Part shown: positions 40,168 through 61,482 of the stretch, piece by piece
Layout: every line of letters begins with the position of its first letter
How positions within the stretch are numbered: the first letter of the stretch is position 1
DNA from: Flavobacteriaceae bacterium PS02334
Lineage (GTDB): Bacteria > Bacteroidota > Bacteroidia > Flavobacteriales > Flavobacteriaceae
Direction: 5' to 3'
Assembly: GCA_029959295.1 (NCBI GenBank)
Contig: JASCOH010000003.1
Span: 496,001-560,000 of the forward strand
DNA: 64,000 nt
Made by a program: the position numbers and the translations under genes
Notes under the pieces: model-generated
Databases searched by the model: none
What the model was told of the DNA's origin: nothing
Seen by the model: only the letters and a program-made list of their open reading frames with translations

Positions 40168-40177
40168 TTGTCTGTTC

Positions 40178-44522: not shown

Positions 44523-44567
44523 CAAAACTACAACCTGTTTATAACCCGTACAGTAACATAGGTTACA
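44523..44567 (-). promoter_or_regulatory. Crp/Fnr-type site and -7 box before CstB-like run (site A)
   Basis: AGTAACATAGGTTACA (44552-44567) is a near-perfect palindrome. On the minus strand its centre (44559.5) is 29.5 bp from the first base of TAGTTTTG (44530-44523), a perfect -7 box. The leader to ATG 44485 is about 37 bases. Confidence 0.8.
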
Positions 44568-44577
44568 AGACTGTTTT

Positions 44578-45381
44578 TTATAAGAATAATTCTTTGATAA
44601 GGATATAGATTCCCATAACCAGTACAAACCAACCGAATGCGGATTTGAGTTTATTTCCTTCTATTTTTTTTGACAGGAAGATTCCGATAAAAATCCCGAC
44701 AACGGATAATCCGGTAAAAGTGGATAACAAAGTCCAGTCTATGGTTTCACTACCTTGTAAATCTCCGGTAAACCCTAAAAGTGATTTCGCAGCAATTATA
44801 AATAAGGAAGTTCCTACGGCTAATTTCATAGGCATTTTTGCTAATAAAACCAATGCCGGAATAATTAAAAATCCACCACCTGCACCGACTAATCCGGTTA
44901 AAGTTCCAACCAAAGCTCCTTCCAACAGAATCATTGGATAGTTGTATTTTATTTCGCCGTCATCTGCATCTTTACAATGCGGACAAGGACGTATCATGGA
45001 TATCGAAGCAAATATCATTACGATGGCAAACAACACCATTAAGGCGATAGGTTTGGTAAATTCAAAACTTCCAACAGTGAAAATAACATCAGGAATCAGA
45101 GGCATCAGATATGCTCTGGTTAAATACACTGCAACAATAGATGGAATACCAAAAATAAATACGGTTTTAAAATCTACTTTTTTATGTAGGGCATTTTGAA
45201 CGCCACCGACCAAAGATGTTGCCCCTACAACGAATAAGGAATAGGCTGTTGCCAGAATAGGATTAACACCCATCACATACACCAAAATAGGAACGGTAAG
45301 TATGGAACCTCCGCTACCTATAAGTCCTAATGAAACACCTACTAAAACGGCCAATAAATAGCCTATAAAATCTGTTGTCAT
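44578..45381 (-). CDS. TauE/SafE-family sulfite/sulfonate exporter
   Basis: A 267-residue membrane protein with two repeated halves (GLIGSGGSILTVPILVYVMG and LTGLVGAGGGFLIIPALVLL), the TauE/SafE signature. A cytoplasmic loop has RPCPHCKDADDGE. In the S. aureus cst operon a TauE protein accompanies CstB to move sulfite/thiosulfate out, and the same logic fits here. It starts 54 bp upstream of site B. Confidence 0.92.
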   Translation of the reverse strand: MTTDFIGYLLAVLVGVSLGLIGSGGSILTVPILVYVMGVNPILATAYSLFVVGATSLVGGVQNALHKKVDFKTVFIFGIPSIVAVYLTRAYLMPLIPDVIFTVGSFEFTKPIALMVLFAIVMIFASISMIRPCPHCKDADDGEIKYNYPMILLEGALVGTLTGLVGAGGGFLIIPALVLLAKMPMKLAVGTSLFIIAAKSLLGFTGDLQGSETIDWTLLSTFTGLSVVGIFIGIFLSKKIEGNKLKSAFGWFVLVMGIYILIKELFL

Positions 45382-45405
45382 AATTCTCTAATTAAATCGA
45401 TAACA

Positions 45406-45450
45406 CAAAATTAGAGGACTGTAATAACGCAGGCAGTAACAATTGTTACA
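45406..45450 (-). promoter_or_regulatory. Crp/Fnr-type site and -7 box before TauE gene (site B)
   Basis: AGTAACAATTGTTACA (45435-45450) has its centre 29.5 bp from the first base of minus-strand TAATTTTG (45413-45406). The leader to ATG 45381 is 24 bases. Confidence 0.82.
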
Positions 45451-45534
45451 GAGCCCTAAAAATTATAAATTATTCGATTTATGTAAAATCATTTTGTGAT
45501 GAAATGGAATTTAATGTTTATTTATTCTGTACTT

Positions 45535-45579
45535 TGTAACAAGTGTTACAATTGTTTTTGTAATTTAGAAATACTTTTA
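45535..45579 (+). promoter_or_regulatory. Crp/Fnr-type site and -7 box before cydAB (site C)
   Basis: TGTAACAAGTGTTACA (45535-45550) is a perfect-arm palindrome centred at 45542.5. TACTTTTA (45572-45579, last base A instead of G) starts 29.5 bp away on the plus strand. The ATG of cydA is 68 bases on. Sites B and C are back to back in a 266-bp gap. Confidence 0.8.
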
Positions 45580-45647
45580 CAGTAGCATATAACAGACGAA
45601 TATATTCTTATTAAAGATTTGATATTCAGTTAAATTAACCATTTCTT

Positions 45648-46985
45648 ATGGAAGATATGATTCTTTATAATCGGTTGCAATTTGCTTTCACGATTACCTT
45701 TCACTACTTGTTTCCTCAACTCACTATGGGGCTTTCCTTGATGATTGTTTATTTTAAATGGAAATTTCTCAGAACGAAAAATGAAGACTACAATAATGCA
45801 TCAAAATTCTGGATGAAGATTTTTGCATTAAACTTCGCAATGGGCGTTGTAACGGGTATTCCAATGGAATTTCAGTTCGGCACCAATTGGGCGAAGTTCT
45901 CTGAGCTTACCGGAGGTATCATCGGACAAACGTTGGCAATGGAAGGAATGTTCTCCTTCTTTTTAGAATCTTCTTTTCTGGGTATGTTTCTTTTTGGAGA
46001 AAAGCTACTTGGACAGAAACTACACTTTCTTTCGGGACTGATGGTTTTCCTCGGTTCCTGGGCAAGTGGTTTTTTGATTATTGCTACACACTCTTGGATG
46101 CAACATCCTGTCGGTTACGAAATTTTTGAAAACGGAAAGTTTGTATTGAACAATTTTAGTGCTCTATTCAATAATCCTTGGCTGTGGCCTTCATATCTAC
46201 ATAATCAAATGGGTTCGTTAGTAACGAGTTCTTTTTTTGTGGCAGCCGTTGGAGCTTTCTATTTATTGAGTAATAAGCATAGTCGCTTTGGGAAGATTTT
46301 TGTAAAAAGCGGAGTCGTTTTCGGGGTAATTTCTTCAGTCATATTGGCTTTCCCTACGGGAGACTGGGCGGCTAAAAATGTGGTTAAATACCAGCCAGCA
46401 ACATTTGCAGCTATGGAAGGTATTTTCGAAACCGAAAAAGGAGGTTCTGAAATCGTTTTGGTAGGGCAACCCGATATGGAGAATAAAAAGCTGGATAATA
46501 AAATCGCTGTGCCCAATGTACTTAGTTTTCTTACTTATCAGCGTTGGGATGCTGAAATTAAAGGTTTAAACGAATTTGATGAATCTATACATCCCACCAA
46601 TGTTCCAGGTTTGTATTATGGTTATCATATTATGGTTGGCTTAGGAACTATTTTTATAGGAATTATGGTACTTGCATCGTTTTTGCTTTGGAAAGATAAA
46701 CTGTATAAAACGAAATGGCTGCTGTGGATTCTTATGTTTATGATCCCTTTTCCTTATATAGCCAATACAGCCGGATGGTACACGGCGGAATTAGGTAGGC
46801 AGCCCTGGCTTGTCTATAACCTGATGCGTATGGTTGATGGCGTTTCACCTACGGTATCTTCAGGAAATACATTATTTACTCTCTTGGGGTTTGTTGGACT
46901 GTATTTGCTTCTTGGATTGCTTTTTCTTTTACTTGTTTTAAAAATCATTCGCAAAGGTCCTGAAGCTAAAATGGCCTTAAAATAA
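45648..46985 (+). CDS. cydA: Cytochrome bd ubiquinol oxidase subunit I
   Basis: A 445-residue membrane protein of CydA type. The heme ligand His19 is at the expected position (FTITFHYLFPQLTMG), GRQPW occurs in TAELGRQPWLVYN, and it lacks most of the long Q-loop of E. coli (short-loop group). Cytochrome bd reduces O2 to water with high affinity and resists sulfide and cyanide, which matches the sulfur genes around. It forms a plus-strand operon with cydB, and site C suggests control by oxygen or sulfur status. Confidence 0.96.
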   Translation: MEDMILYNRLQFAFTITFHYLFPQLTMGLSLMIVYFKWKFLRTKNEDYNNASKFWMKIFALNFAMGVVTGIPMEFQFGTNWAKFSELTGGIIGQTLAMEGMFSFFLESSFLGMFLFGEKLLGQKLHFLSGLMVFLGSWASGFLIIATHSWMQHPVGYEIFENGKFVLNNFSALFNNPWLWPSYLHNQMGSLVTSSFFVAAVGAFYLLSNKHSRFGKIFVKSGVVFGVISSVILAFPTGDWAAKNVVKYQPATFAAMEGIFETEKGGSEIVLVGQPDMENKKLDNKIAVPNVLSFLTYQRWDAEIKGLNEFDESIHPTNVPGLYYGYHIMVGLGTIFIGIMVLASFLLWKDKLYKTKWLLWILMFMIPFPYIANTAGWYTAELGRQPWLVYNLMRMVDGVSPTVSSGNTLFTLLGFVGLYLLLGLLFLLLVLKIIRKGPEAKMALK

Positions 46986-46991
46986 TTGATT

Positions 46992-48068
46992 ATGGAGATA
47001 TTTTGGTTTATTGTATTAATGGTTATGTTGGGGATTTACATTATCCTCGATGGGTATGATTTTGGAGCCGGGATTGTACATTTATTTTTGGCTAAAACCG
47101 AGGAAGAAAAAAAAGCCGTAACTAATGCTATCGGGCCTTTTTGGGATGCTAATGAAGTGTGGCTGATTGCTTCAGGAGGTGTTTTATTCTTTGCATTTCC
47201 GACGCTATATGCATCGGCTTTTAGTGGTTTTTATCTGCCTTTAATGCTGGTTTTATGGTTGTTGATTTTCAGAGCTGTAGGACTGGAATTGCGAGGACAA
47301 GTACATCACAAAATGTGGGAAGCTATTTGGGACAAAGCATTTGGGATTGCAAGTTTTCTGTTGGCTCTTTTCTTTGGTGCAGCACTCGGAAACGTGGTAA
47401 GAGGTGTAAACCTTGGAATGGTCGAAAATGGTATTTCTACACAAGAAGCTCATTATTTCTTTCTGGCACTTTGGAACCCTACGTTTGATCCGCTTGCAGA
47501 GCATCAGGGGGTTATTGACTGGTTTACCTTGTTATTGGGACTTGTTGCTGTGGTAACATTAACCATTCACGGGGCTAATTGGATTATTTTGAAAACATCT
47601 ACATCACTCAACGGGCGGCTCAAAAAGGTAATTTTTAAATTGAATTTTGTATTGCTGGCACTGGTTGTTGCTTCTGCTTGTTTATGGCATTATGTAAAGC
47701 CCTTTCCTTTAAATAATCTGCAAACGCATTATTGGCTTTGGATATTCCCGATAATTGGTGCAGTAGGTCTAATCGGGTTGTTCAGAATTAACAAATTTAA
47801 AAAGGACAGCACCGGATTTTTATTTTCTTCTATGTTTATTTTCGGAAGCTTTGCCACCACTATAGCTTCTTTGTTTCCGACTTTATTACCTTCTACAAAT
47901 CAAATTAACCCATCATTGACTGTCTATAATGTGGCCGCTCACGAATACGGACTTTCAGTAGGTTTGGGATGGTTTATAGTTGCAGCTATTTTGGTTGTGA
48001 TATATTTCATCATTCAGTTCAGAGTTTTTAAAGGCAAAATGGATGATGTAGGTTACGGAGAGCATTAA
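46992..48068 (+). CDS. cydB: Cytochrome bd ubiquinol oxidase subunit II
   Basis: The start is ATG 46992 (MEIFWFIVLMVMLGIYIILDG, 358 residues); an in-frame TTG at 46986 directly follows the cydA stop. CydB signatures are GYDFGAGI and FWDANEVWLIASGGVLF, both near the N-terminus. It stabilises subunit I and binds quinol. The stop is just ahead of a 17-bp-stem terminator. No cydX- or cydDC-like gene is next to it. Confidence 0.95.
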   Translation: MEIFWFIVLMVMLGIYIILDGYDFGAGIVHLFLAKTEEEKKAVTNAIGPFWDANEVWLIASGGVLFFAFPTLYASAFSGFYLPLMLVLWLLIFRAVGLELRGQVHHKMWEAIWDKAFGIASFLLALFFGAALGNVVRGVNLGMVENGISTQEAHYFFLALWNPTFDPLAEHQGVIDWFTLLLGLVAVVTLTIHGANWIILKTSTSLNGRLKKVIFKLNFVLLALVVASACLWHYVKPFPLNNLQTHYWLWIFPIIGAVGLIGLFRINKFKKDSTGFLFSSMFIFGSFATTIASLFPTLLPSTNQINPSLTVYNVAAHEYGLSVGLGWFIVAAILVVIYFIIQFRVFKGKMDDVGYGEH

Positions 48069-48069
48069 A

Positions 48070-48110
48070 AAAACTCAAAGACTAAGCATTTGACTTAGTC
48101 TTTGAGTTTT
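48070..48110. terminator. Very strong bidirectional terminator overlapping the end of the thioesterase gene
   Basis: Perfect 17-bp arms (48070-48086 and 48094-48110) surround a 7-base loop CATTTGA; the arms end in AAAA/TTTT. It ends cydB, and on the other strand the thioesterase stop codon (48097-48095) lies within the stem. Confidence 0.85.
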
Positions 48111-48559
48111 ATCGCTAAAATTTCTCCTGTCGCACAAACAATTCCTTCAGCGGAAAGTGTCATATCTACCAAGATTTTTCTGCCCTCGATACTTCGGAGT
48201 TTTCCTTTTAGCTCCAGCTTTTTACCCATTGGTGTAGGTGCTTTAAAATCAACTTTAAGCGATGCTGTTACACATCTTATGGAAATAATAGCTGCATTTT
48301 CAAGATCAATATTTTCTGCCAGACAAGCAAAAGCCGCAGCCGAACCAGTTCCGTGACAATCTAATAAGGAAGCAACTAATCCACCGTAAACACTTCCGGG
48401 AATTGCTGTAAATATTTCATCTGGTAAAAAATGGGCGATAGTTTCATCTCCCATTAAATATGTTTTTAACTGATGACCATCTGGATTATTCTTACCACAT
48501 CCGTAGCAATGTGCTAGTTCATCGGGATACAAATCTTGAATTGCTTTTGATTTTTGCAT
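48095..48559 (-). CDS. PaaI-family hotdog-fold thioesterase
   Basis: A 154-residue hotdog protein: GSVYGGLVASLLDCHGTGSA (variant of the HGG segment), and SLKVDFKAPTPMGKKLELKGKL. It hydrolyses acyl-CoA thioesters in the family. A zinc-type N-terminal CYGCGKNNPDG is visible, as in a subset. Its own promoter is not clear; the gene begins 20 bases after the MBL gene's end, so it may be co-transcribed. Confidence 0.88.
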   Translation of the reverse strand: MQKSKAIQDLYPDELAHCYGCGKNNPDGHQLKTYLMGDETIAHFLPDEIFTAIPGSVYGGLVASLLDCHGTGSAAAFACLAENIDLENAAIISIRCVTASLKVDFKAPTPMGKKLELKGKLRSIEGRKILVDMTLSAEGIVCATGEILAIKLKD

Positions 48560-48579
48560 TCTACTCCTAAAATTTAAAG

Positions 48580-50046
48580 TTATTTTACAAGTTCGTTATT
48601 TTTATCTTTCCAATCATTAATTCCACCAGAATAATTCAGAATGTTTTCAAAACCGTTTTTTACAAGAATGGAATAAGCAATTGCCGCTCTTGTTCCGCTT
48701 TGGCAATGGATGATGACAGGTTCTTTTTTATTGATTTTATTAAGATTGTTTTCAAGTGTATTCAGTACTATATTTTCAACACCTTTGATATGGCCACTTT
48801 TGTATTCGTTTTCGGTACGAACATCAATTTTCTTAATGTTTTTGTTTCCCAAATATGATTTGAAAGTATCTATATCGATGGTTTTTACATTTTGCAAAGC
48901 CAAATTTTGTTCAGACGGATTAGTTATGTACCCATAGATATTGTCCATCCCGATACGCATCAGTTTACGGGTCAAATCCTCGATTTGATTTTCGTCTGCA
49001 ACCAAAATAATCTGATTTTGATAATCAACAACCGAACCGACAAACGTGGAGAATGTTTTCATATTTTCAATCAGAAGACTCCCCGGAATATATCCTTTTC
49101 CCGAAGTTGCTTTTGGGCGGGCATCTATTACGAGTAAACCATTTTTAATCGCATCTTCTGTTTCTTTTTGATTGAGTTTAGCAAGTTTTGGAACTTCAAC
49201 CAATAGCGGACGATCTACTCTGTTCAGATGTTTCATCATCGCAAAATATTTTGGCGGAGCTGGTTGATCGTTCAAAATATAGTTTACAAAATCAGTTTCT
49301 TTTCCCGAAAATTGCAAAGCAGGATTGGTCAATTTTTCTTGTTGCAAAGTAGATTGCGGAATATTGCTCAAACTTTTGCCGCAGAAAGAACCTGCTCCGT
49401 GTCCCGGCCAGATTTCTGTGTTATCGGGTAATTTCAAAAATTTCTCAATAGAATGATAGAGTTGCTTTGCTCCAATTTCCTGCGAACCAATTTGTCCTGC
49501 TGCTTTTTCCAATAAATCGGGACGGCCGACATCGCCTACAAAAATAAAATCTCCGGTAATGGCTTTTATTGGATTTGAAGTTCCGTCTTTTACCAAAAAC
49601 GTAATGCTTTCAGGAGTATGTCCAGGTGTGTGAATGACTTCTATCGTAATACTTCCAACCGAAATTTTATCGCCATTTTTCAGTCCGGTGTGTGGAAAAT
49701 CGTATTGCCAGTCTTTTCCACCTTCGTCAGACAGATATAACGGTGCTTTGGTTACTGTTGCGAGTTCTCGTGAACCACTCAGGAAATCTGCGTGTATATG
49801 GGTCTCGGTAATTTTGGTAATTTTTAAATTATGTTTCTCTGCAATTTGCAAATAGGTATCAATGTCTCTTTTAGGATCGATGACAATCACTTCTTTGGTT
49901 TCTGCATCCCCAATCACGTAACTTGCCTGTGATAGTGTTTCGTCATAAACACGTTCAAAGAAAAGAGTTTGTGCAAATGAGGAATTGGATAGGAAGAATA
50001 TTGCTACCAACCAAAGAAAACTGCTTTTTAAAAAGATGGATTTCAT
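48580..50046 (-). CDS. Exported CstB-like persulfide dioxygenase-rhodanese fusion (signal peptide)
   Basis: A 488-residue protein with a signal peptide (FLWLVAIFFLSNSSFAQ) in front of the same fusion: THIHADFLSGSRELATVTK, GDFIFVGDVGRPDLLEKAAG, IWPGHGAGSFCGK, an inactive rhodanese, and the active VIIHCQSGTRAAIAYSIL. It would oxidise persulfide in the periplasm, whereas its paralogues at 41657 and 43067 work in the cytoplasm. It has site D as its promoter. The exported form is unusual for ETHE1-type enzymes. Confidence 0.9.
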   Translation of the reverse strand: MKSIFLKSSFLWLVAIFFLSNSSFAQTLFFERVYDETLSQASYVIGDAETKEVIVIDPKRDIDTYLQIAEKHNLKITKITETHIHADFLSGSRELATVTKAPLYLSDEGGKDWQYDFPHTGLKNGDKISVGSITIEVIHTPGHTPESITFLVKDGTSNPIKAITGDFIFVGDVGRPDLLEKAAGQIGSQEIGAKQLYHSIEKFLKLPDNTEIWPGHGAGSFCGKSLSNIPQSTLQQEKLTNPALQFSGKETDFVNYILNDQPAPPKYFAMMKHLNRVDRPLLVEVPKLAKLNQKETEDAIKNGLLVIDARPKATSGKGYIPGSLLIENMKTFSTFVGSVVDYQNQIILVADENQIEDLTRKLMRIGMDNIYGYITNPSEQNLALQNVKTIDIDTFKSYLGNKNIKKIDVRTENEYKSGHIKGVENIVLNTLENNLNKINKKEPVIIHCQSGTRAAIAYSILVKNGFENILNYSGGINDWKDKNNELVK

Positions 50047-50126
50047 ATATTAATTGCTTTAAAATTTCAATGTTTTATATTTATCTACACTAACTTCGCA
50101 TAGTTATATGTGATATTATAAATAGA

Positions 50127-50171
50127 CAAAATTAGCAATTCCCATTTTGGCAGAAAGTAACATAGGTTACA
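50127..50171 (-). promoter_or_regulatory. Crp/Fnr-type site and -7 box before exported CstB-like gene (site D)
   Basis: AGTAACATAGGTTACA (50156-50171) has the same 16 bases as site A. Its centre is 29.5 bp from the first base of TAATTTTG (50134-50127, minus strand). The leader is 80 bases. Confidence 0.82.
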
Positions 50172-50233
50172 TAGGGGGTAGGAATAAAAAAAACATTCAA
50201 AAGCGCAGTTCCTCCATTGTTTTAATCTTTCAC

Positions 50234-50785: not shown

Positions 50786-50880
50786 TAGCGAACGAAACAG
50801 TTCTGATAAAGAAACTTTTCTTTTATACTAAGTTTGATTTTCAATGTTTTGAGGTATAGATATGTTATTATTCATTGTAC

Positions 50881-51573
50881 TTAATTTGTATGTCCGCCAA
50901 TGATGCTTCCGTCTTTCATTTCTATGGTACGGTCACTTTTCTGAGCGAATTCATCATCGTGGGTTACAGCAATAATGGTTTGTCCGAAACTGCGGGTCAG
51001 GTCTTTGAAAATATCAAAAACAATGTCTGTGTTCTTACTGTCCAAATTACCTGTTGGCTCATCACCCATAATAATCAACGGATCATTAATTAAGGCTCTG
51101 GCAATGGCAACACGTTGTTGCTGCCCACCCGAAAGTTTATTCGCAGGTTTGAGGGCCTGATCTTCCATACCCAGCATTTTTAACTTTTCATAAGCCCGTT
51201 CTTCTATTTCCTTTGGGGAAAACTTACCCAATTTCAGTGCGGGAATCATCACATTTTTCAGGCAGGTAAATTCTGCCAGCAGGTAATGAAACTGGAATAC
51301 AAAACCTATTTTTTCGTTTCGGATTGCTGCCAGTTCATCAACCGATTTTCCTGTAATTAATTCATTATCTATCACTAAATTTCCATTATAATCTCTGTCC
51401 ATAGTGGAAAGGATATAGAGCAAAGTAGATTTACCACTCCCTGACTTCCCGATAAGTGTTAGAAATTCACCTCTCTCTACTTCAAAACCAATATTTTTCA
51501 ACACCTGAAATTCTACCGGGTCATAAAAATACTTGTCGATATTTTCTGTTTTTAAAACGATATTTTTATCCAT
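50881..51573 (-). CDS. MacB/LolD-type ABC transporter ATPase
   Basis: A 230-residue ATPase: Walker A GKSGSGKST, Q-loop FVFQFHYLL, signature LSGGQQQRVAIARAL, Walker B LIIMGDEPTGNLD, and H-loop AVTHDD. It fits the mechanotransmission group of MacB, LolD and FtsE and goes with the FtsX-like permease 3 bases upstream. The pair forms, with the adaptor and TolC genes, a MacAB-TolC-like exporter. The substrate is unknown. Confidence 0.94.
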   Translation of the reverse strand: MDKNIVLKTENIDKYFYDPVEFQVLKNIGFEVERGEFLTLIGKSGSGKSTLLYILSTMDRDYNGNLVIDNELITGKSVDELAAIRNEKIGFVFQFHYLLAEFTCLKNVMIPALKLGKFSPKEIEERAYEKLKMLGMEDQALKPANKLSGGQQQRVAIARALINDPLIIMGDEPTGNLDSKNTDIVFDIFKDLTRSFGQTIIAVTHDDEFAQKSDRTIEMKDGSIIGGHTN

Positions 51574-51576
51574 GAT

Positions 51577-52800
51577 TTACTTTCTAAAAATGCTGACCGG
51601 ATCTACTTTTGCTGCTTTACGGGCAGGAATGTATCCGGCAAAAAATGTAATAACTAAGCCCATAACAACTCCCTGAATGAATTTCTGCAGTTCATAATCT
51701 ACAGGAAAGTATCCTATGTCACCACCGATATATACCTTTTTCAACAAGGTAATCATTAGCAATGCCATCAACATTCCGCCAACTACACCAATCAAGCCAA
51801 TAGATAATGCCTGCGTTACAAAAATCCGTATCACATCTTTCCCTTTAAAACCAATAGCTTTTAAGATGGCAATGTCATTTATTTTTTGTGAAACGGTCAT
51901 GTTCAGGATATTGTAAATGCCAAAACCAGCAATGAGCATAATGGCTGTAGAGACAAAATTGATCATAATGAACCGCATTTTGCTGAGTGCCATCAGCGAT
52001 TCGTTACTCTCTTTCCAATCTTCGGATTTGTATCCGGTTAACTGAGATAACTTTTCGGCAACGGCTGCCGCTTGATACGGATCTTTTACATTGACACTGA
52101 TGTCTGTTACATACACATTGTTTTCTTTGAGCAATTGCTGGGCCGTGTATAGATTAACGTACGATTTGGTGTCGTCGGCAGTTGAATTAAATGATCGAAA
52201 AATACCTGCTACACGGAGGTTCTTAGTTACACCTTTTTGTGATGTAAGATTGATATTATCACCAAGTACCAAGTTCATTTTTTCTGCTATTCCTATACCG
52301 ATTACGATGCCGTTCGGGTCGGATTTCAGGGTTTCAAATTTGCCTTCAACCATTGATGATGTAATGCTGTACATCATATCTGCTTCGTCTGGCTTTATCC
52401 CAATGCTTAATCCACTCACCTGAGTTTTTCCGTTATTATAAAACACGCTTGTGTTGACTTGGGCTGTTACCACAGTTACTTCCTTCTGTTGTTGTACCAT
52501 TTCTGCAATACCGTTCGGGTTAATGATGGTATTGACTTTGGGTACTACTTTCGGATTGGAAATCAGGTACTCGGCAGCAGTATCACTTACCAGATTTTTG
52601 CTGATGACATCATCATTGTACAACCGAATATGTGGAGTGTTTTTGAAAATATTTTCGTCAGATGCTTTATCAAAACCAACCAGTAAACTGTTCATGAAAA
52701 TATAGATTGACATTCCGAGCAATACCCCAAGAACGGCTACAGCAGTCATTTTTTTGCCTGAAAAAAGGTAAGTTCTGGCTATGTCTGTATTAATATTCAT
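51577..52800 (-). CDS. MacB/FtsX-type ABC transporter permease
   Basis: A 407-residue protein with one N-terminal TM (TAVAVLGVLLGMSIYIFMN), a large periplasmic domain, and three C-terminal TM helices, beginning with FVSTAIMLIAGFGIYNILNM and ending GYIPARKAAKVDPVSIFRK. This is the MacB/LolC/E plan without a fused ATPase. It is 3-4 bases from genes on either side. Confidence 0.92.
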   Translation of the reverse strand: MNINTDIARTYLFSGKKMTAVAVLGVLLGMSIYIFMNSLLVGFDKASDENIFKNTPHIRLYNDDVISKNLVSDTAAEYLISNPKVVPKVNTIINPNGIAEMVQQQKEVTVVTAQVNTSVFYNNGKTQVSGLSIGIKPDEADMMYSITSSMVEGKFETLKSDPNGIVIGIGIAEKMNLVLGDNINLTSQKGVTKNLRVAGIFRSFNSTADDTKSYVNLYTAQQLLKENNVYVTDISVNVKDPYQAAAVAEKLSQLTGYKSEDWKESNESLMALSKMRFIMINFVSTAIMLIAGFGIYNILNMTVSQKINDIAILKAIGFKGKDVIRIFVTQALSIGLIGVVGGMLMALLMITLLKKVYIGGDIGYFPVDYELQKFIQGVVMGLVITFFAGYIPARKAAKVDPVSIFRK

Positions 52801-52804
52801 CAGT

Positions 52805-53896: not shown

Positions 53897-53900
53897 ACGT

Positions 53901-55226
53901 CTAAAACTTATTATTGATGATAATTTTATTTTCACTAAATCCAATGCCTGCCAAAGCTGTAATAACATTTAGCTGGCTCAGCAGCATATCGGTTTGTGCA
54001 GTAAGTAATTTGTCTAAGGGCAGAATATTTTCCTGATATTGATCGAAGTATTTCTGATAAGTATCTTCTTTCAAGGTTTGAATTTTCTTAAAGTTTTCGA
54101 GCTGTGAAGATGCTTTTTCGTACTCCACCAACAAATTGCTATTGCGGGTTTCGTTTTCACGCAAAAAGTGAATACGATCATTTTCGGCCATTTGCCATTG
54201 CATTTTTTTCTCTTTTACCGCCGAATATTTTGAAACGGTAGTAGGTAAATCCCAACTCAAACGAAGACCAACGTAATTAAAATCAATCCAATTGGAATTT
54301 GGATGAAAAAAGGACTCATTACTCAAGTTTTGCCAATTAAAGGAAGATACAAATCCCAAAACGGGTAACTGTTGTTTCTGTGCCGCTTTCCATTCCTGTT
54401 CTGCCATTTTTTCTCTCAGCTGATAATGGTTTACCCATAAATTGTTGTTTGCTTCTGTCAATATTTGTTTATGATCGAAATCTCGAATGTTTTGATTTAA
54501 AATGGGACTGGCTTCATTCTCAAAAAACAAAGCAAGATTTTGCTGTTGGATTTGGATATTAAATTGCAATTGCGAAAGCTGATCCTGTAATCGAATGAGG
54601 TTCACTTCGGCTTCGTTTACATCTTGTTTTCGCACAATCCCTTCTTCAAACCTGTTGTTTACGATTGTTAAAATTTGTTTTGCAATGACGATATTCTGCT
54701 CTACCATCTGTTGTTGTCCCTGAAACGATAAGATATTAAAGTAAATGCCGTTCAACTGGTCATAAATAGTCCATTCGTTTATTTTTTGCTGATTGGCTAC
54801 CAGTTCCTGATTGGTTTTGGCAAGTTTTATACGGCTTATATTTCCAAGGTTAATAATATCGAACTGCGGTTGTATGCTGAATGTGCTGACATATTGCAAC
54901 CCCATTGTGATTTCACGAAAAGAACCGGGCAAACCGCCGAAAACTTCCGCAGGAATATAATTGGTTTGTAAATTCATATTATCAATAACCTGAGCCGATA
55001 CCGGAATTCTCGGATTAAAGGCATTTCCAACTGCGGTTTTTTTGTTCAGCTCTGCTAAATTTTGCTGGATGATGTCATTCCTGAAACTGACTTTTTTCTC
55101 CTTTGCAAAGGCAAGTACTTCGTCCAGCGTATGAAATTCTTTCTTCTCCTGCGACCATACCATAACAGGCAAGAAAAGGATGACTATAAGCAATTTATGT
55201 TTGTGAATATTCACTAACTTTCTCAT
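53901..55226 (-). CDS. TolC-family outer membrane protein of the ABC exporter
   Basis: A 441-residue protein with a signal peptide (LLIVILFLPVMVWSQ) and the duplicated long-helix pattern (RLQDQLSQLQFNIQIQQQNLALFFENEA, in parts). It is the outer membrane channel for the ABC system. The gene is 18 bases downstream of TetR, so the regulator and the pump form one transcript of five genes. Confidence 0.9.
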   Translation of the reverse strand: MRKLVNIHKHKLLIVILFLPVMVWSQEKKEFHTLDEVLAFAKEKKVSFRNDIIQQNLAELNKKTAVGNAFNPRIPVSAQVIDNMNLQTNYIPAEVFGGLPGSFREITMGLQYVSTFSIQPQFDIINLGNISRIKLAKTNQELVANQQKINEWTIYDQLNGIYFNILSFQGQQQMVEQNIVIAKQILTIVNNRFEEGIVRKQDVNEAEVNLIRLQDQLSQLQFNIQIQQQNLALFFENEASPILNQNIRDFDHKQILTEANNNLWVNHYQLREKMAEQEWKAAQKQQLPVLGFVSSFNWQNLSNESFFHPNSNWIDFNYVGLRLSWDLPTTVSKYSAVKEKKMQWQMAENDRIHFLRENETRNSNLLVEYEKASSQLENFKKIQTLKEDTYQKYFDQYQENILPLDKLLTAQTDMLLSQLNVITALAGIGFSENKIIINNKF

Positions 55227-55244
55227 TCAAAAAAATATTATAAA

Positions 55245-55826
55245 TTAGACCTTTATTAAAGCTAAAATGCTATTCATTGTTTTTTGTCCCTGAACCTCAA
55301 TATCAAATTCAAAAGAAGCCAATTTCCACTTCAGCATTTGCAGCCGAAACGTACCCATAACAATATGCACAAGTTCTTCTGAAGCTATTACTGTTCTAAA
55401 AACACCTGTCTCTTGTCCTTCCTTTATCAGGGAATTGAAACGGATGAAATTGGTTTGTAATAATTGCTGTATGGCATTTTTTACCTCATCAGAATTATCA
55501 ATCAACCCGTCTGATAAAACAATATTGATGAAGCACGGATTTTGTTTGAAATACGAAAACTGACTTTTAAAAAGTGTTGTAAACTTTTCTTCCGGTGATT
55601 GCTTTGTATTGATAATGGCATCAAAACGCTGGGTAATATTTTCTGATAAATAAGCAATTAATAGTGTTACGATTGCCTCTTTATTTTTGAAATGACGATA
55701 CAAAGCACTTTCTGAAAAATGCATTTCCCGAGCCAAATTTTTAGTTGTAAGCCCTGCAATGCCGCTTTCCATCAATATTTTACCTGATGCCTTTATTATT
55801 TCCAGCTGTCTTTCAGACAAATTCAT
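55245..55826 (-). CDS. TetR/AcrR-family regulator
   Basis: A 193-residue repressor-type protein: HTH ILMESGIAGLTTKNLAREMHFSESALYRHFKNKEAIV at the N-terminus (in parts) and a helical ligand-binding C-terminal domain. It leads the exporter operon and probably represses it, but its promoter also has site E, so both TetR and the Crp/Fnr protein may control expression. Confidence 0.92.
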   Translation of the reverse strand: MNLSERQLEIIKASGKILMESGIAGLTTKNLAREMHFSESALYRHFKNKEAIVTLLIAYLSENITQRFDAIINTKQSPEEKFTTLFKSQFSYFKQNPCFINIVLSDGLIDNSDEVKNAIQQLLQTNFIRFNSLIKEGQETGVFRTVIASEELVHIVMGTFRLQMLKWKLASFEFDIEVQGQKTMNSILALIKV

Positions 55827-55850
55827 TTAATCCAAACTATTTTAAAAATG

Positions 55851-55895
55851 TAAAAGTAGTTTAGCTCATTAAGCTACACTGTAACAAAGGTTACA
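55851..55895 (-). promoter_or_regulatory. Crp/Fnr-type site and -7 box before TetR-exporter operon (site E)
   Basis: TGTAACAAAGGTTACA (55880-55895) has perfect arms. Its centre is 29.5 bp from the first base of minus-strand TACTTTTA (55858-55851), the same -7 variant as at site C. The leader is 24 bases. Confidence 0.8.
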
Positions 55896-55909
55896 CAAAT
55901 AAAAAAATT

Positions 55910-56275
55910 TTAAGCCAGGTTTTCAATTGCTTCAAACACACAATCTACTGCCATGCTAAATGCAGGCATTCCACCTGTAATCGCTGCGGTTTCGCAAACT
56001 CCAAAAAGTTCTTTCACGGTTGCTCCGGCTTTTAAGGCTCCTTTGGCGTGCAATTTTGCAGGTTCTTTGTGCATACCGCCAATCAATAGGGAAAAGTGAA
56101 CCAATTGCTGGGTTTTCTTGTCAAGTGGATTGTTGTAAATGAGTTGTTCCCGGTATTTTTCGATGATTTCTATGGCATCTGTTTCGTCTGAAAGCGCTGC
56201 CAATTTTAATCTTTTCTCGATGTTTTCCGGAACGAAACCTAGCAGTTCTTCGTACTTTTTTCTAATGTTTTCCAT
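55910..56275 (-). CDS. Carboxymuconolactone decarboxylase-family protein
   Basis: A 121-residue CMD-fold protein (LVHFSLLIGGMHKEPAKLHAKGALKAGATVKEL, in parts) with GVCETAAITGGMPA. It has no CxxC motif, so it is unlike the AhpD-type at 50234. It shares a base (56275) with the DinB gene's stop and is probably co-translated. A metabolic or redox role is unknown. Confidence 0.88.
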   Translation of the reverse strand: MENIRKKYEELLGFVPENIEKRLKLAALSDETDAIEIIEKYREQLIYNNPLDKKTQQLVHFSLLIGGMHKEPAKLHAKGALKAGATVKELFGVCETAAITGGMPAFSMAVDCVFEAIENLA

Positions 56276-56820
56276 TATCCGATTAAGGTTGAAGTGTTAG
56301 GCCATTCCATATATTCAGCCGGATAAATTCCGTTTTGACGCATCAGCATATCCACTTGTCCTAAATGATACGAATGATGCCCGAACGTAATCCATAAAAA
56401 TGCCATTACCGTGTATTTCCGTCCCATAAAGGAAACTGTTTTGTTTAAATCTTCTTCGGTATAGCTTTTCAGGATTTCAAATCCTTTGGCAAAAACTTCT
56501 CTGTATTTTTCCACTAATTCCTGTCCGTCTGCAATGTTTTCCAATAAAGAAGCGTTATCAGGTTTTGGAATTACCAGTCCACTTTCTCCCTCTTTCATCG
56601 CTTGAAACCAATGAATTTCTGCCAATACAAAATGACGGATTAATCCACCTATATTAATTGTATTCACACGAGTTCCGAGATACATCACTTCGTTATCAAT
56701 TGGTGTACTTTTAAACACTTCATCAGGAACATCTTTCAGTAATTCCAACGTTTGAAGATAAAGTTGTTTGTGGATATTTAAGAAGCGGTTAAATTCCTGT
56801 ACTGTTGTTTTATTTTCCAT
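56275..56820 (-). CDS. DinB-family (bacillithiol transferase-like) protein
   Basis: A 181-residue four-helix-bundle protein of the DinB/YfiT type, with three metal-ligand-like histidines: IRHFVLAEIHW and FGHHSYHLGQVDM. DinB-fold proteins include bacillithiol S-transferases and other thiol-dependent enzymes. It is the first gene of a two-gene unit with site F in front. The bacillithiol link matches YtxJ elsewhere in the window. Confidence 0.87.
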   Translation of the reverse strand: MENKTTVQEFNRFLNIHKQLYLQTLELLKDVPDEVFKSTPIDNEVMYLGTRVNTINIGGLIRHFVLAEIHWFQAMKEGESGLVIPKPDNASLLENIADGQELVEKYREVFAKGFEILKSYTEEDLNKTVSFMGRKYTVMAFLWITFGHHSYHLGQVDMLMRQNGIYPAEYMEWPNTSTLIG

Positions 56821-56842
56821 TATTCTTGCATTTAAATTTTTG

Positions 56843-56887
56843 TAAAATTAATCGGGAACTAAAAGATACACAGTAACCATTGTTACA
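56843..56887 (-). promoter_or_regulatory. Crp/Fnr-type site and -7 box before DinB-CMD genes (site F)
   Basis: AGTAACCATTGTTACA (56872-56887). Its centre is 29.5 bp from the first base of minus-strand TAATTTTA (56850-56843). The leader is 22 bases. The site lies right after the stop of the methyltransferase gene. Confidence 0.78.
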
Positions 56888-56897
56888 GAAATAAAAC

Positions 56898-57590
56898 TTA
56901 TTTCGCTTTAACAATAAATTGATACGGCAGTAAATCTACATTCACTTCAAAAGAAGTATAACCAGCTTTTTTCAATTCTGCTACTACTTCATCAATCGAA
57001 ACTTTATGGTTTGTTGGAGGTCCCACCGGAACATCGGTTTTAAAGAAATCAATCACCACTAATTCTCCGTCATTTTTCAAACCTTTTTTTACTTTTGCAA
57101 AATACTCGGCTCGATTGTCAATATGGTGATATGAATTTACGATTAACACCATATCCACTTCATTGTCTTTCAAATCAGGACTGTCAAAAGGTATTTTGCG
57201 AAGAGTGATATTCTCGATTTTGTTGTCTTCAATACGTTTTTTTAGGAAAGTCTGAAACTCATCATTTACATCGGCTGCAATTACATTTGCTCCGTGTTTG
57301 GCAAGTTTCACAGAAAAATATCCCGTTCCCGCACCAATGTCCATAATGGCTTTTCCATTGATGTCGCCTAAGTATTGCATCACCTTGTGCGGTTGCTGGT
57401 ATTCGTCACGTTCTTTGGATTCGAAACGGTTAATCAAATCATCCGTAGAAGATTTGTGCATATATTCATTTGCAGAGTGTGCAGGTTTTCCGTCTCCGTG
57501 ACCGTGATGCTTTTTGTTTTGATGTTCCTGTGCCATAATTGTACTGGTTGAGGCAATCGCAAGGATTGCGGTAATAATTTGTTTTTTCAT
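56898..57590 (-). CDS. Class I SAM methyltransferase with signal peptide and His-rich N-terminus
   Basis: A 230-residue protein with an apparent signal peptide (ITAILAIASTSTIMAQE) and a His-rich stretch (KKHHGHGDGKPAHS), then a complete SAM-methyltransferase domain (AIMDIGAGTGYFSVKLAKHG; VDMVLIVNSYHHIDNR). SAM is not expected in the periplasm, so either the signal is a membrane anchor or the enzyme uses another ligand. It follows an APC permease by 11 bases in the operon of the copper-type TonB receptor. The His-rich segment suggests a metal. Confidence 0.85.
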   Translation of the reverse strand: MKKQIITAILAIASTSTIMAQEHQNKKHHGHGDGKPAHSANEYMHKSSTDDLINRFESKERDEYQQPHKVMQYLGDINGKAIMDIGAGTGYFSVKLAKHGANVIAADVNDEFQTFLKKRIEDNKIENITLRKIPFDSPDLKDNEVDMVLIVNSYHHIDNRAEYFAKVKKGLKNDGELVVIDFFKTDVPVGPPTNHKVSIDEVVAELKKAGYTSFEVNVDLLPYQFIVKAK

Positions 57591-57601
57591 TTTATATTAA
57601 T

Positions 57602-58906
57602 TTAATAATTAGACTTTTCTAATTTTTTACTCCAGAAATAAGTTCCTGTTCCAATGAGTAAATTGCTCATTCCTAATATTGTTTCAAACGGATTATTGAT
57701 AAACGCGTAGGTAATCATCCATACAGATAAAAGAATAAACACAATTTGAAACAGCGGAAATAATGGACTTTTGAAACCTTTTATTTGTTGATTTTGATTT
57801 TGCTTTCGCAATTTGAATACACCTAAAACCGTCATTAAAGAAGAAGCCGTGAGCAATATTCCGCAATAAATCATAATCTGTTCAAAGGTTCCGGTAAGCA
57901 ACAATAATGCACTGATGCCAAACTGCAACCACAAGGCTCTTTTAGGAATGCCGTTTTCCTGTGTTTGAAAGTACGACCAAAGACGATGTTCTTTTGCAAT
58001 GCTTAATGTTACTCTCGAACCAACCCAGACCATAGCACTAATGCCTGAGATTAACAGTAATGAAATAGCCAACCCAAAGAAATTTCCTACTTTTTCTCCC
58101 AACATTTGCTGTGTAGTAATGGTGCCTACGTTCAACTGTCCGGCTAAATTCTCAATCGGAACGTGTTTCAGAAAAACGTATTGCAATAAGGTGTATAAAA
58201 CCGTAACCAAAACCGTTCCTCCAATAAGTGCTTTGGGTAAAGATTTTAAAGGATTTTCAAATTCTTCGGTAATATAAGCTGCCGCATTCCAGCCCGAATA
58301 CGAATAACTTACATAAATCAGTGCAATTGCAAAAGCTGTTGACGTTAATTCGGTAAAATATCCTTTTGAAGAAACAATGTCATTACCCGAATGCTCCGGC
58401 AAAATCAAACCAACACCAATAATTATGACAATCAAAATTACTTTGAGCAAAGTACTGATGTTTTGAAATTCGGCACTCAGTTTCAAACTTCGGGTATGGA
58501 TTAATGTGATGATAGCGACCAAGGCAATACTCATCCATTTGGCATTGAAATTCCCAAATGGAAAATACTCCGAAAAAGCAATCGCAGCTAAAGCAATCGG
58601 TGCCGCAAAACCAACGGTTATCGAAATCCATCCCGAAAGATAACCGATTAAAGGATTGTAGATTTTGGACAAGAACGCATACTCTCCTCCTGATTTTGAA
58701 ATAACCGTTCCTACTTCAGCATAACTGAACGCTCCCGAGAGAGCCAAAATACCGCCTAAAACCCAAAGAGTAAGTACAACCGATGGATTATTCAAGTCTT
58801 TGAGTTGAAACCCTAAACTGGTAAATGCACCCGTGCCAATCATATTGGCAACCACAATGGCAATTCCTGTTAGCGTCGTGATTTTATGTTTGGATTTTGG
58901 CTGCAT
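57602..58906 (-). CDS. APC-family amino acid permease
   Basis: A 434-residue 12-TM protein of the APC superfamily: IVVANMIGTGAFTSLGFQL in TM1, GGEYAFLSKIYNPLIGYLSGW in TM3 (in parts). The substrate is likely an amino acid or amine. It starts 3 bases after the TonB receptor stop. In this operon it could import a metal-amino acid complex product or simply be a co-regulated nutrient carrier. Confidence 0.92.
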   Translation of the reverse strand: MQPKSKHKITTLTGIAIVVANMIGTGAFTSLGFQLKDLNNPSVVLTLWVLGGILALSGAFSYAEVGTVISKSGGEYAFLSKIYNPLIGYLSGWISITVGFAAPIALAAIAFSEYFPFGNFNAKWMSIALVAIITLIHTRSLKLSAEFQNISTLLKVILIVIIIGVGLILPEHSGNDIVSSKGYFTELTSTAFAIALIYVSYSYSGWNAAAYITEEFENPLKSLPKALIGGTVLVTVLYTLLQYVFLKHVPIENLAGQLNVGTITTQQMLGEKVGNFFGLAISLLLISGISAMVWVGSRVTLSIAKEHRLWSYFQTQENGIPKRALWLQFGISALLLLTGTFEQIMIYCGILLTASSLMTVLGVFKLRKQNQNQQIKGFKSPLFPLFQIVFILLSVWMITYAFINNPFETILGMSNLLIGTGTYFWSKKLEKSNY

Positions 58907-58909
58907 ACG

Positions 58910-60970
58910 TTAAAATTTATATTGCACGAAAACCGTAAAATTTCTACCGGCTTCATTAATCGGTACACTGGCAAAACCTTCCTGATTTCGGAATGCAAAA
59001 TTTAAGTGGTTGTGGTATGTCTTATCAAAAATATTTAGCCCGGCTATTCCGATACTTAGTTTTTCAACAGGTTTATAACCCAACCGTACATCCATAGTCT
59101 GATAACCCCCTGTTCTGATTTCTCCGAATGAATATGCCAACTCATTTTGGCTTGCTACAATGTTATACTGAATATTTCCCCAGAATTTTTCTTTTTCTAT
59201 TCCTGTAGAAATACGAGCGGTGAAGGGTGGAATTAATGGTAAAGATTCATCAAAATCCTTATTTCTGGTATAGATATAAGATAAATCGGTTTTTAAGAAA
59301 TAGTATTTTCCGAAATCCAATTTAGCAGAAGCATCAATGCCTGTTTTGTAAGCATCTTTTATATTTGTAAATACTTTAGCATCAGATGCTATATCAGGCT
59401 CAATTACTGCCGAAATATAATTTCTAAAAAAACCATAATATACAGATCCTTCAAAATGAATGGTATTGAAAAAACCATTTAGATTTTCATAACCATTTAA
59501 TCCAATTTCAAATTGATTATTTACCTCAGCTTTCAGATCTGGATTTCCGGTATAGGTATAACTATCCTGCCCGACATTGAACTGGTTGATGTATCGTTCG
59601 ATCATATTGGCAGAACGCACACCACGACCGTAAGCAAATTCTAAAAACAACCGGTCTGAAAATGCTTTTTTCACCGAAATGGTTCCACTTAGATTATGCT
59701 CTGTTCTTTTATTCAAATCATACAATGCGGAAAAATCTGCTTCCGGTTTACGAATGTCAGACATGACCATATCGTAACGTAATCCAGCGGATAAAATATA
59801 GGAAGTCAGAAAGTTCCATTTAGCTTCCGTATAAACTCCTATATCGTCAATATAAGAATCCTGCCATATAGAATTTATTCTTGTCACAGGGTTGGGTAAT
59901 GGATTACCGTTCTGCATCTTTATTAGTCTTGTGCGGTCTCCATCTCTATCAATATGCAGATAATCCATTCCGCTAAAAAAATGAAGTTTATCTGAAGTTT
60001 TCCATTCCAATTCTGCTTTTCCACCGATAGTTGTAGAATTTACATCGGCTGCTGCTTCTGTCGCTTTTGCCGTAGTACGGTTATAATTCGTCATCAAGTG
60101 ATCTACATAACTGTAATAGGTTTTTACTTGCAGGCTTTTTAGATTTTTTCCAATATTTTCCCATTTGTAATCCAATGAAGCAATGCTGCTGTTGTCATAT
60201 TCGGTATCCATAGGAAGACCTGCGTGGAGCACATCTCGTCCGAAAGCCTGTCTCCAGGACACTTGTATACGCTGGTGCGGGTTGATGTTATATCCCAGTT
60301 TGACTCCATAATCCGTACTTCTGAATGAGGACGGAATTTCAGTGCCGTCACCATCCTTGTAATTACCATAATCTCTGTAACCAAAATTTCCGGCTACGTC
60401 AAATTTTTGCGTTACATATTGTAGCTGAGCCATTCCTACATAGGCATTTCCATTGGTTTCGTAGCCTGAAGCCACCGAACCGTGAAAGCCGTGTTCTCCT
60501 TTTGATGGATTGCGTGTGACCAGATTGACGATGCCCCCAAAATTTGCACCGTACCGCACACTATAGGGACCTTTAATGATTTCTATTTTCTCAATTTCTT
60601 CAGGCGAAATGTGAGAGGTAATCGGATCCATACGATTAGGACAAGCGTGCATCACTTTCAGTCCACCATCGTATTGAATATTCAATTGCTCATATTGTGC
60701 ACCCCGAAATGTAGGATCCATTGCGTAATTCCCTCGTTTTATTAAAGAAAATCCATTTATGTCACTAAATAAGCCAGCTACATTTTTAGGTTGTACTATT
60801 TTTTCATTATAGTTGTTGGAAACTTTACTGAATGTGGGGTTTTCCAATCTATAACCCGTAATTATTATTTCATTGAGGATCGTTGTTTTTATAGTATCCT
60901 CTTTTTGCTCACTTTGAGCCATAGCTATATAAGGCACAATACAAAGCAAAGTCAATAGTATTGATTTCAT
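58910..60970 (-). CDS. TonB-dependent receptor, copper-type (CxxxM plug motif)
   Basis: The start is ATG 60970 (MKSILLTLLCIVPYIAMAQS, 686 residues); an upstream start at 61027 precedes the signal peptide. A plug domain (about residues 30-150) and a beta barrel ending FTVFVQYKF follow. In the plug, HACPNRMDPITSH has Cys110, Met114 and His108/His120, the CxxxM arrangement used for copper by the OprC receptor family. It lies between a small CNGKC protein (58 bp upstream gap) and APC permease. Copper import is inferred from the motif, not shown. Confidence 0.9.
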   Translation of the reverse strand: MKSILLTLLCIVPYIAMAQSEQKEDTIKTTILNEIIITGYRLENPTFSKVSNNYNEKIVQPKNVAGLFSDINGFSLIKRGNYAMDPTFRGAQYEQLNIQYDGGLKVMHACPNRMDPITSHISPEEIEKIEIIKGPYSVRYGANFGGIVNLVTRNPSKGEHGFHGSVASGYETNGNAYVGMAQLQYVTQKFDVAGNFGYRDYGNYKDGDGTEIPSSFRSTDYGVKLGYNINPHQRIQVSWRQAFGRDVLHAGLPMDTEYDNSSIASLDYKWENIGKNLKSLQVKTYYSYVDHLMTNYNRTTAKATEAAADVNSTTIGGKAELEWKTSDKLHFFSGMDYLHIDRDGDRTRLIKMQNGNPLPNPVTRINSIWQDSYIDDIGVYTEAKWNFLTSYILSAGLRYDMVMSDIRKPEADFSALYDLNKRTEHNLSGTISVKKAFSDRLFLEFAYGRGVRSANMIERYINQFNVGQDSYTYTGNPDLKAEVNNQFEIGLNGYENLNGFFNTIHFEGSVYYGFFRNYISAVIEPDIASDAKVFTNIKDAYKTGIDASAKLDFGKYYFLKTDLSYIYTRNKDFDESLPLIPPFTARISTGIEKEKFWGNIQYNIVASQNELAYSFGEIRTGGYQTMDVRLGYKPVEKLSIGIAGLNIFDKTYHNHLNFAFRNQEGFASVPINEAGRNFTVFVQYKF

Positions 60971-61028
60971 TTTTTTAAAATTTGATGAATGATAAATACA
61001 TTCCTTAATTAAATCAAGGAATTTCAAT

Positions 61029-61409
61029 TTAGACCATCAAATTTTCGGGTGGACGTTTGTATTTATCCAAATATGGAAAGGAATAGAAGGATTTTTTGGC
61101 AATATTTTTATTCTTCTGTAATCTTTCGATCTTTATAAACTCTAAAGTGAATTTTTCAGTAGGAATAAAATCAGAAAAGCTGATAATAGAAATTTGTTCG
61201 GGTATTTTTTCCTGTGTTTCTGAAGCCTCTTTTGTGGCTTTACTTAGACTGCATTTTCCATTACAATGCAGTTCCGGCTTCTCTTGATTTTCACAAAACA
61301 ATTCTATATACCTTTCGGTGTCCAATAAATAAAAAGCATAATGAAACTGTGCATAGAACGTTCTAAACACTAAAGTAAAGAGGAATATGTACAAGGCTGC
61401 TTTCTTCAA
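61029..61409 (-). CDS. Small periplasmic or membrane protein with HCNGKC motif
   Basis: A 126-residue protein with an N-terminal hydrophobic segment (ALYIFLFTLVFRTFYAQ) that may be a signal or anchor. Three cysteines stand close together (FCENQEKPELHCNGKCSLSK: Cys39, Cys49, Cys53), followed by a charged C-terminal part. Proteins with this CNGKC pattern stand next to copper-type TonB receptors in Bacteroidota, as I recall. It is first of the receptor operon, behind site G. A metal-binding accessory role is the best guess. Confidence 0.7.
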   Translation of the reverse strand: MKKAALYIFLFTLVFRTFYAQFHYAFYLLDTERYIELFCENQEKPELHCNGKCSLSKATKEASETQEKIPEQISIISFSDFIPTEKFTLEFIKIERLQKNKNIAKKSFYSFPYLDKYKRPPENLMV

Positions 61410-61437
61410 AGAAAATCTTTTGAAACCATTAATGCAA

Positions 61438-61482
61438 CAAAGTTACTTTGGCGAGATGGTATTTATTGTAACCAATGTTACA
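61438..61482 (-). promoter_or_regulatory. Crp/Fnr-type site and -7 box before copper-receptor operon (site G)
   Basis: TGTAACCAATGTTACA (61467-61482) has perfect arms. Its centre is 29.5 bp from the first base of minus-strand TAACTTTG (61445-61438), a perfect -7 box. The leader is 28 bases. Confidence 0.82.

Follow-up and report, generated by a model that had tools for sequence, protein, structure and literature searches.

A Crp/Fnr-family regulator with putative class II operators before sulfide and sulfane-sulfur genes on a probably mobile island of a Flavobacteriaceae bacterium

Hydrogen sulfide detoxification has been well studied under regulators of the CsoR, ArsR and sigma-54 types (PMC8148161). 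Acinetobacter baumannii responds to sulfide with a sulfide:quinone reductase (SQR), a persulfide dioxygenase (PDO), TauE, cydAB and the copper receptor OprC, together with a second operon, yeeE-yedE-pdo2 (PMC7315123, PMC8148161). In the current study, we characterized a Crp/Fnr-family gene and the palindromes around it in 64,000 nucleotides of Flavobacteriaceae bacterium PS02334 (hereafter the window; contig C33, JASCOH010000003.1, positions 496001-560000; genome of 4,585,233 bases in 69 contigs). With the FisR/BigR regulons of A. baumannii the locus shares SQR, PDO, TauE and YeeE/YedE, with cydAB and a copper receptor among the genes that sulfide induces there, but a sigma-54 activator and an ArsR-family repressor act there, whereas a CRP/FNR-type protein is found here (PMC7315123). 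The rhodanese, PDO and TauE/SQR-type set is also that of CstR and the cst operon of Staphylococcus aureus; unlike the present case, CstR is a CsoR-family repressor of a single operon (PMC8148161). Promoters of the NtcA/CRP class II type have the -41.5 centre and the CRP/FNR fold in common with this locus, but their ligands are 2-oxoglutarate and cAMP, and they use a -10 box in place of the -7 box of Bacteroidota (PMC3898017). Closest in operator is HcpR2, a CRP/FNR-family regulator of GTAACnnnnGTTAC with specificity set at the equivalent of CRP Glu-181; it differs in having Pro where the window protein has Val, and the latter has sulfur targets, a cysteine cassette and no hcp (PMC1274295). We consider it probable, on the evidence of the sequence, that the palindromes are operators of the island's own Crp/Fnr protein, acting as a class II activator over a self-contained regulon for sulfide and sulfane-sulfur stress.

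Operators and promoter geometry

An initial annotation of the window had listed seven palindromes, each centred 29.5 bp from the first base of a TAnnTTTR box. The palindromes are where it placed them, as seven matches to WGTAACNNNNGTTACW with none in any of 100 dinucleotide shuffles, and the offset was recovered in all seven, on the strand of the downstream gene. The sites are as follows, with start-codon distances (30 to 88 nt) counted from the first base of the box:

44552-44567, minus strand: palindrome AGTAACATAGGTTACA (plus-strand letters); box TAGTTTTG at 44523-44530; gene 43067-44485, start codon at 45 nt
45435-45450, minus strand: palindrome; box TAATTTTG at 45406-45413; tauE 44578-45381, start codon at 32 nt
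45535-45550, plus strand: palindrome; box TACTTTTA at 45572-45579; cydAB 45648-48068, start codon at 76 nt
50156-50171, minus strand: palindrome; box TAATTTTG at 50127-50134; metallo-beta-lactamase/rhodanese gene 48580-50046 and thioesterase-like open reading frame (ORF) 48095-48559, start codon at 88 nt
55880-55895, minus strand: palindrome; box TACTTTTA at 55851-55858; tetR-like gene 55245-55826, then outer-membrane efflux protein (OEP), HlyD, MacB-FtsX and ABC genes, start codon at 32 nt
56872-56887, minus strand: palindrome; box TAATTTTA at 56843-56850; DinB gene 56275-56820 and CMD gene 55910-56275, start codon at 30 nt
61467-61482, minus strand: palindrome; box TAACTTTG at 61438-61445; ORF 61029-61409 and the genes behind it, start codon (TTG) at 36 nt

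When one mismatch was allowed in the 14-bp core, the window held 11 matches where 1.35 were expected. Ten copies of the exact core, GTAAC-N4-GTTAC, are present in the whole genome, and eight of these fall in a stretch of 22,969 bp (binomial P ~2e-17, for an interval chosen after the fact). A genome search for the exact core with the box at the fixed offset returned eight matches, all within this cluster, and in each of the eight the box faces the gene at exactly 29.5 bp. The eighth site lies just outside the window, at contig position 563509, with TACTTTTA at 29.5 bp, and its neighbor is a flavoprotein gene with a Pyr_redox_2 match that scores 233.2 bits against a sulfide:quinone reductase model (below the cut-off of 525). 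The annotation was right and understated the cluster, which extends past the window to an SQR-type gene; it also overlooked that this operator had been published as the HcpR2 motif and that the surroundings are conjugative-transposon genes. No box was found at 29.5 bp from either core copy outside the cluster; one copy is upstream of umuDC-like genes in prophage-like surroundings, and the other lies inside a coding region next to the gene for ATP synthase beta. The umuDC-linked copy, the ninth exact palindrome of the genome (TGTAACTATAGTTACA at C7:3119, L012:3118), stands among more GTAAC/GTTAC repeats and is probably read by another repressor.

A larger regulon elsewhere in the genome was not seen, and weaker sites could not be separated from noise: with up to two mismatches, core plus box had 18 genome matches vs. 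25 for a reversed control pattern. Among these is a degenerate ninth site with two mismatches (C33:562143-562186; TGTAACCTATGTAACA, with GAAATTTG at 29.5 bp) before a Sulf_transp/DUF6691 (YeeE) operon; the crp/fnr gene lies downstream of that operon in the same orientation. Since the reversed control outnumbers the pattern, it is the position that speaks for this site.

According to start sites mapped in Flavobacterium psychrophilum, the sigma-A box spans -12 to -5 (PMC9723704), from which the palindrome centre here falls at -41.5. This is the class II position, stated also for canonical NtcA-activated promoters (PMC3898017). Class II activation, as the annotation proposed, is supported by the single box distance in eight of eight sites and by its recurrence around related regulators. 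For the latter we collected 80 loci (1,499,199 bp), the best 80 of 261 found by scanning the genomes of 84,980 species, with proteins 57-100% identical to the window Crp/Fnr protein; some are near-identical, and two (L039 and L040) match the island of the window at 100% identity. Exact palindromes numbered 180, in 74 of the 80 loci, a density of 120 per Mb vs. 0.44 per Mb in the window's genome outside the cluster, while the counts of 15 control palindromes in these loci ranged from 0 to 17. A box stood at 29.5 bp on at least one side of 135 palindromes (137 pairs), with the next commonest offsets at six each, and 119 of the 137 pairs were left after removal of look-alikes. A sliding or second spacing was rejected, as palindrome-to-TAnnTTTG gaps of 21 and 23 bp were seen two and four times vs. 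85 times for 22 bp. The start codons of 136 related promoters crowd ~31 nt behind the box. At L057:8712 and L085:18220 the palindrome has a 29.5-bp box on both sides, so that one operator may serve two divergent promoters. Across a wider set of 395 Bacteroidota genomes, the exact operator with box was present in 39 and the reversed control in 3. Together, the shuffles, expected counts, genome clustering, reversed control and relatives' loci rule out a chance origin of the sites.

The regulator and its operator

The candidate regulator was assigned by the annotation, which noted it as the only one of its kind in the window:

63132-63761, minus strand: Crp/Fnr-family regulator of 209 aa (PF00027, 1.1e-6; PF13545, 3.8e-8; both above cut-off)

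An N-terminal cNMP-type (cyclic-nucleotide) domain and a C-terminal Crp-type helix-turn-helix place it in the CRP/FNR superfamily, and its recognition helix reads SSRVVISR. PF13545 matches at six places in this genome, five Crp-like and a sixth that looks ArsR-like; by eye, the Arg-Val-x-x-x-Arg helix is confined to the window protein among the five, the other four having Glu without the flanking Arg. R182, V183 and R187 were present in 81 of 81 close relatives; bacteria with a Val-183 relative include Maribacter flavus (L112) and Flavobacterium beibuense (L063). The peptides used to find the 80 loci covered the residues ahead of the recognition helix as well as the latter half of the cysteine cassette described below, so that conservation of both in those loci is partly by construction. 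Conservation was therefore read also from the wider set, 127 of whose genomes hold a relative at E 1e-30. From 77 of these, 86 regulators were classified, taking every genome with a match of at least 40% identity plus five below it (G007, G095, G099, G143, and G154), of which three were chosen because sites were present. Arg-182 and Arg-187 were found in 86 of 86, with Val at position 183 in 45 and Glu in 41.

The HcpR2 operator GTAACnnnnGTTAC, to which the window sites conform, has been tied to loss of CRP Glu-181, replaced there by Pro (Rodionov 2005, PMC1274295). Val-183 occupies the CRP-181 position, and thus both operator and recognition rule were already known (PMC1274295); here the two support the pairing of the window protein with these sites. 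The protein differs from CRP itself, having Val rather than the CRP Glu and scoring 48.6 bits against the NCBIfam CRP model (cut-off 266). Among genomes whose regulator carries Val, 31 of 42 had GTAAC promoters, vs. 4 of 35 with Glu only (plain-table p 4e-8), or 30/40 vs. 2/32 by hand count without the five added genomes. A comparison of 40 loci picked with site status known gave GTAAC sites in 17 of 23 Val and 0 of 17 Glu loci. This association, the palindromes and boxes around homologues in 74 of 80 loci, the sole R-V-x-x-x-R helix in the genome and the crp/fnr gene's own place directly behind a site in 7 of 136 cases all argue for the regulator assigned by the annotation.

It is suggested, though no more than that, that Glu relatives bind GTGAC, which would be a one-residue operator shift with geometry and sulfur targets kept. 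The combination of GTGAC-N4-GTCAC and a box at that position was found in 12 of the 395 genomes (reversed control, 2), among them G273, which has a Glu-183 homologue, before a metallo-beta-lactamase/rhodanese gene and G076 before a peroxiredoxin gene. In classified genomes such matches were found in 8 of 39 with a Glu regulator vs. 2 of 38 without, a difference that is not significant (p 0.087). In G088 (L188:9163-10130) and G367 (L189:3198-4115), a Glu-type Crp/Fnr gene that lacks the CC cysteines is directly followed by GTGAC-N4-GTCAC and a box at the usual distance, before a YgaP-like transmembrane gene.

Targets, candidate sensor and competing explanations

The genes behind the seven window sites, with the run following the first of them, are:

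43067-44485, minus strand: metallo-beta-lactamase/rhodanese protein, PDO/CstB-like by domains (NCBIfam matches all below cut-off)
39418-43039, minus strand: genes behind it, comprising a second metallo-beta-lactamase/rhodanese protein (41657-43039), peroxiredoxin (40979-41626), rhodaneses (40593-40907 and 40178-40549) and thioredoxin (39418-39837)
44578-45381, minus strand: TauE/SafE-family exporter (PF01925, 4.5e-41)
45648-48068, plus strand: cydAB, cytochrome bd oxidase (PF01654, 1.9e-149; PF02322, 2.1e-80)
48095-50046, minus strand: metallo-beta-lactamase/rhodanese and thioesterase-like proteins (domain matches)
50881-55826, minus strand: TetR-like regulator, OEP, HlyD-like protein, MacB/FtsX permease and ABC ATPase
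55910-56820, minus strand: DinB/thiol-transferase-like and CMD (AhpD-like) proteins
56898-61409, minus strand: small ORF (61029-61409), TonB receptor (58910-61027), amino-acid permease (57602-58906) and methyltransferase (56898-57590)

Most target labels of the annotation hold, namely the two metallo-beta-lactamase/rhodanese fusions, TauE, CydA/CydB, the TetR exporter (OEP-HlyD-MacB/FtsX-ABC), DinB, CMD and the TonB receptor. Its copper label for the receptor falls short, the best NCBIfam match being copper receptor TIGR01778 at 274.7 bits (cut-off 472.45), and six ORFs of at least 100 aa were checked in what it called an eight-gene run. Genes 39418-43039 may be co-transcribed with 43067-44485, judging from their orientation only. 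Among the relatives, the first gene behind the box was taken for 136 of the 137 site-box pairs and targets were grouped by clustering (Pfam listing for 25 of 39 families). The core comprises 41 metallo-beta-lactamase/rhodanese, 22 TauE and 13 SQR-type genes (76/136). Further targets were DinB, Tll0287-like, YeiH-type (PF03601) and DUF983-like genes (5 each), TetR, fatty-acid-hydroxylase, SulP and peroxiredoxin genes (4 each), CydA (2), YeeE-type genes (2) and smaller groups.

From these elements we infer a mechanism in which a Crp/Fnr dimer at -41.5 would cover the position of the -33 element and recruit RNA polymerase at the TAnnTTTR -7 box. Sulfide would be oxidized by the SQR-type flavoprotein, and the resulting persulfide oxidized or transferred by the metallo-beta-lactamase/rhodanese proteins and rhodaneses. 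TauE and YeeE-type proteins would move sulfur oxyanions, cytochrome bd would sustain respiration, and protection of the thiol pool would fall to peroxiredoxin, thioredoxin and DinB-like proteins. The inducer may be sulfide or a persulfide sensed by cysteines 77, 83 and 84; this signal is named mainly because the target list resembles the A. baumannii sulfide response.

Cysteines of the window regulator occur only at these three positions (GDTCSMTLTCC), which, compared by eye, presumably align with the cyclic-nucleotide cassette of CRP. C77 and C83 were present in 81 of 81 close relatives and C84 in 79. The likeliest reading is a thiol-based persulfide switch through the C-x5-CC cassette, with metal, haem or iron-sulfur (Fe-S) ligation as alternatives. 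Met68 and His149 of Porphyromonas gingivalis HcpR have been linked to haem-based nitric oxide sensing (PMC12750200).

Several observations weigh against the regulon as we propose it. Around the relatives, 45 of the 180 palindromes lack the box, and 60 of the 136 targets fall outside the three core groups, including TetR, DUF983, Tll0287, fatty-acid-hydroxylase and efflux genes. Of the 42 Val genomes, 11 have no exact GTAAC promoter, and four Glu-only genomes do: G162 before TauE and SQR-type genes, G154 before a rhodanese gene, G111 before a thioredoxin gene and G099 before an outer-membrane efflux protein gene; no second regulator was found in G162, G154 or G099 down to E 1e-5. Val and Glu changed only ~4 times on the tree, so that a tree-aware test of residue 183 has 2 to 4 independent pairs and is powerless. 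In the wider set, Cys-77 is kept in 86 of 86 regulators, Cys-83 in 74 and Cys-84 in 50. Finally, the nearest solved structure by sequence, 3dv8 (profile E 8.4e-21), which we take to be a Crp/Fnr protein of Eubacterium rectale, shares C-x5-C at the same place but differs by Glu in the recognition helix. Because this distant protein has C-x5-C, and C83 and C84 are less kept in the wider set, the cassette is no proof of persulfide sensing.

It is unlikely that the protein senses low oxygen or general redox state in the manner of FNR, with cydAB and sulfide genes both needed at low oxygen. FNR-type proteins are indeed relatives, and cydAB is among the targets in this island as well as in L045 and L047; however, cydA makes up just 2 of 136 targets with a core of sulfur genes, and the three cysteines fall one short of the four-cysteine Fe-S ligand set of FNR. 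None of the three, we presume, is in the N-terminal FNR arrangement. Distinctly improbable is an HcpR2-type nitric-oxide regulator whose control of nitrosative stress would take in the sulfur genes only incidentally. The operator is identical, GTAACnnnnGTTAC (PMC1274295), and a genome without a window-regulator relative at E 1e-5 (G238, L239:6295-8002) has it at 29.5 bp before a hybrid-cluster-protein gene. That promoter is likely an HcpR2 promoter, and the geometry is therefore common to another Bacteroidota regulator of the superfamily. Yet the expected hcp (PF03063) was not found in this genome (the control matched in 5 of 14 known genomes), which makes HcpR2 identity unlikely; the protein has Val for the HcpR2 Pro, the targets are sulfur genes, and no HcpR is among the PDB relatives at E 1e-3.

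Two further rivals concern what acts at the palindromes and how. Four genomes (G230, G238, G077, and G380) have a site-box match with no match to the window protein at E 1e-30, as would be expected if a different regulator encoded elsewhere bound the sites, but this is very improbable given that 74 of 80 loci have sites near the gene, the auto-promoter in 7, and the lack of any other fitting Crp-like protein in the genome. That the window protein binds the sites but represses is hardly credible at all. Most described sulfide sensors (CstR, SqrR/BigR) do repress (PMC8148161); against this stand a centre fixed at -41.5 as in NtcA-activated promoters (PMC3898017), the absence of a conserved -33 TTTG beside the operator, and one exact distance that a repressor does not need. 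Activation by the island's own protein thus remains the reading that we prefer.

We found no CRP/FNR-type sulfide regulon of Bacteroidota described in the literature covered, which excludes most subscription journals. The parts, the operator and the recognition rule were known; the combination of a class II CRP/FNR activator, a cysteine cassette and an island-borne sulfide regulon was not found described, which is weak evidence of its novelty. A gene set similar to those of known sulfide responses here appears to be under a CRP/FNR-type activator at one exact promoter geometry, in a phylum about whose transcriptional control little is known. If this is right, the locus offers an inducer and a sensor site as predictions and promoters ready for use in reporters, and it shows a detoxification program that travels with a dedicated regulator and a private operator (8 of the genome's 10 operator-like places are in the island). 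More broadly, it is conceivable, although we would stop short of calling it probable, that in a CRP/FNR branch widespread in Bacteroidota the C-x5-CC cassette replaced cyclic-nucleotide binding. This branch would supply the phylum's activating sulfide/persulfide sensor, moving between families with its regulon on conjugative islands and shifting between GTAAC and GTGAC through Val/Glu 183 while geometry and sulfur targets are kept.

The island and its neighbors

The region has topoisomerase and RteC genes to one side and, to the other, genes for a coupling protein, a relaxase and MobC, of the kinds typical for conjugative elements in Bacteroidota. The same DNA was found in Empedobacter tilapiae (91.6% over 14.4 kb), Moheibacter lacus (93.5% over 9.6 kb) and Sphingobacterium wenxiniae (90-92% over 5.5 and 4.7 kb), and a genome of another family (G269) has a regulator 97% identical and eight operator-box sites. 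Regulator, private operator and targets therefore seem to travel together, and the island is probably mobile, of the integrative-conjugative type. Plasmids had no DNA match to window positions 43000-64000 and four protein matches of 41-49.5% identity; the one examined, from Persicobacter, had no evident sulfur neighborhood by annotation.

Just outside the window (L011:7600-7880), across the SQR-type promoter, lies what by eye resembles the broken-off start of a dihydroorotate dehydrogenase gene, perhaps an insertion scar. Close to the island are genes for a BrxC-type monothiol bacilliredoxin (33924-34310) and a DsbA-like protein (35571-36278), with no operator seen before either, hinting at bacillithiol-based thiol chemistry. 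Within the conjugative-element region, window positions 13676-19108 encode a 1810-aa protein with N6-methylase, SNF2-related and helicase domains.

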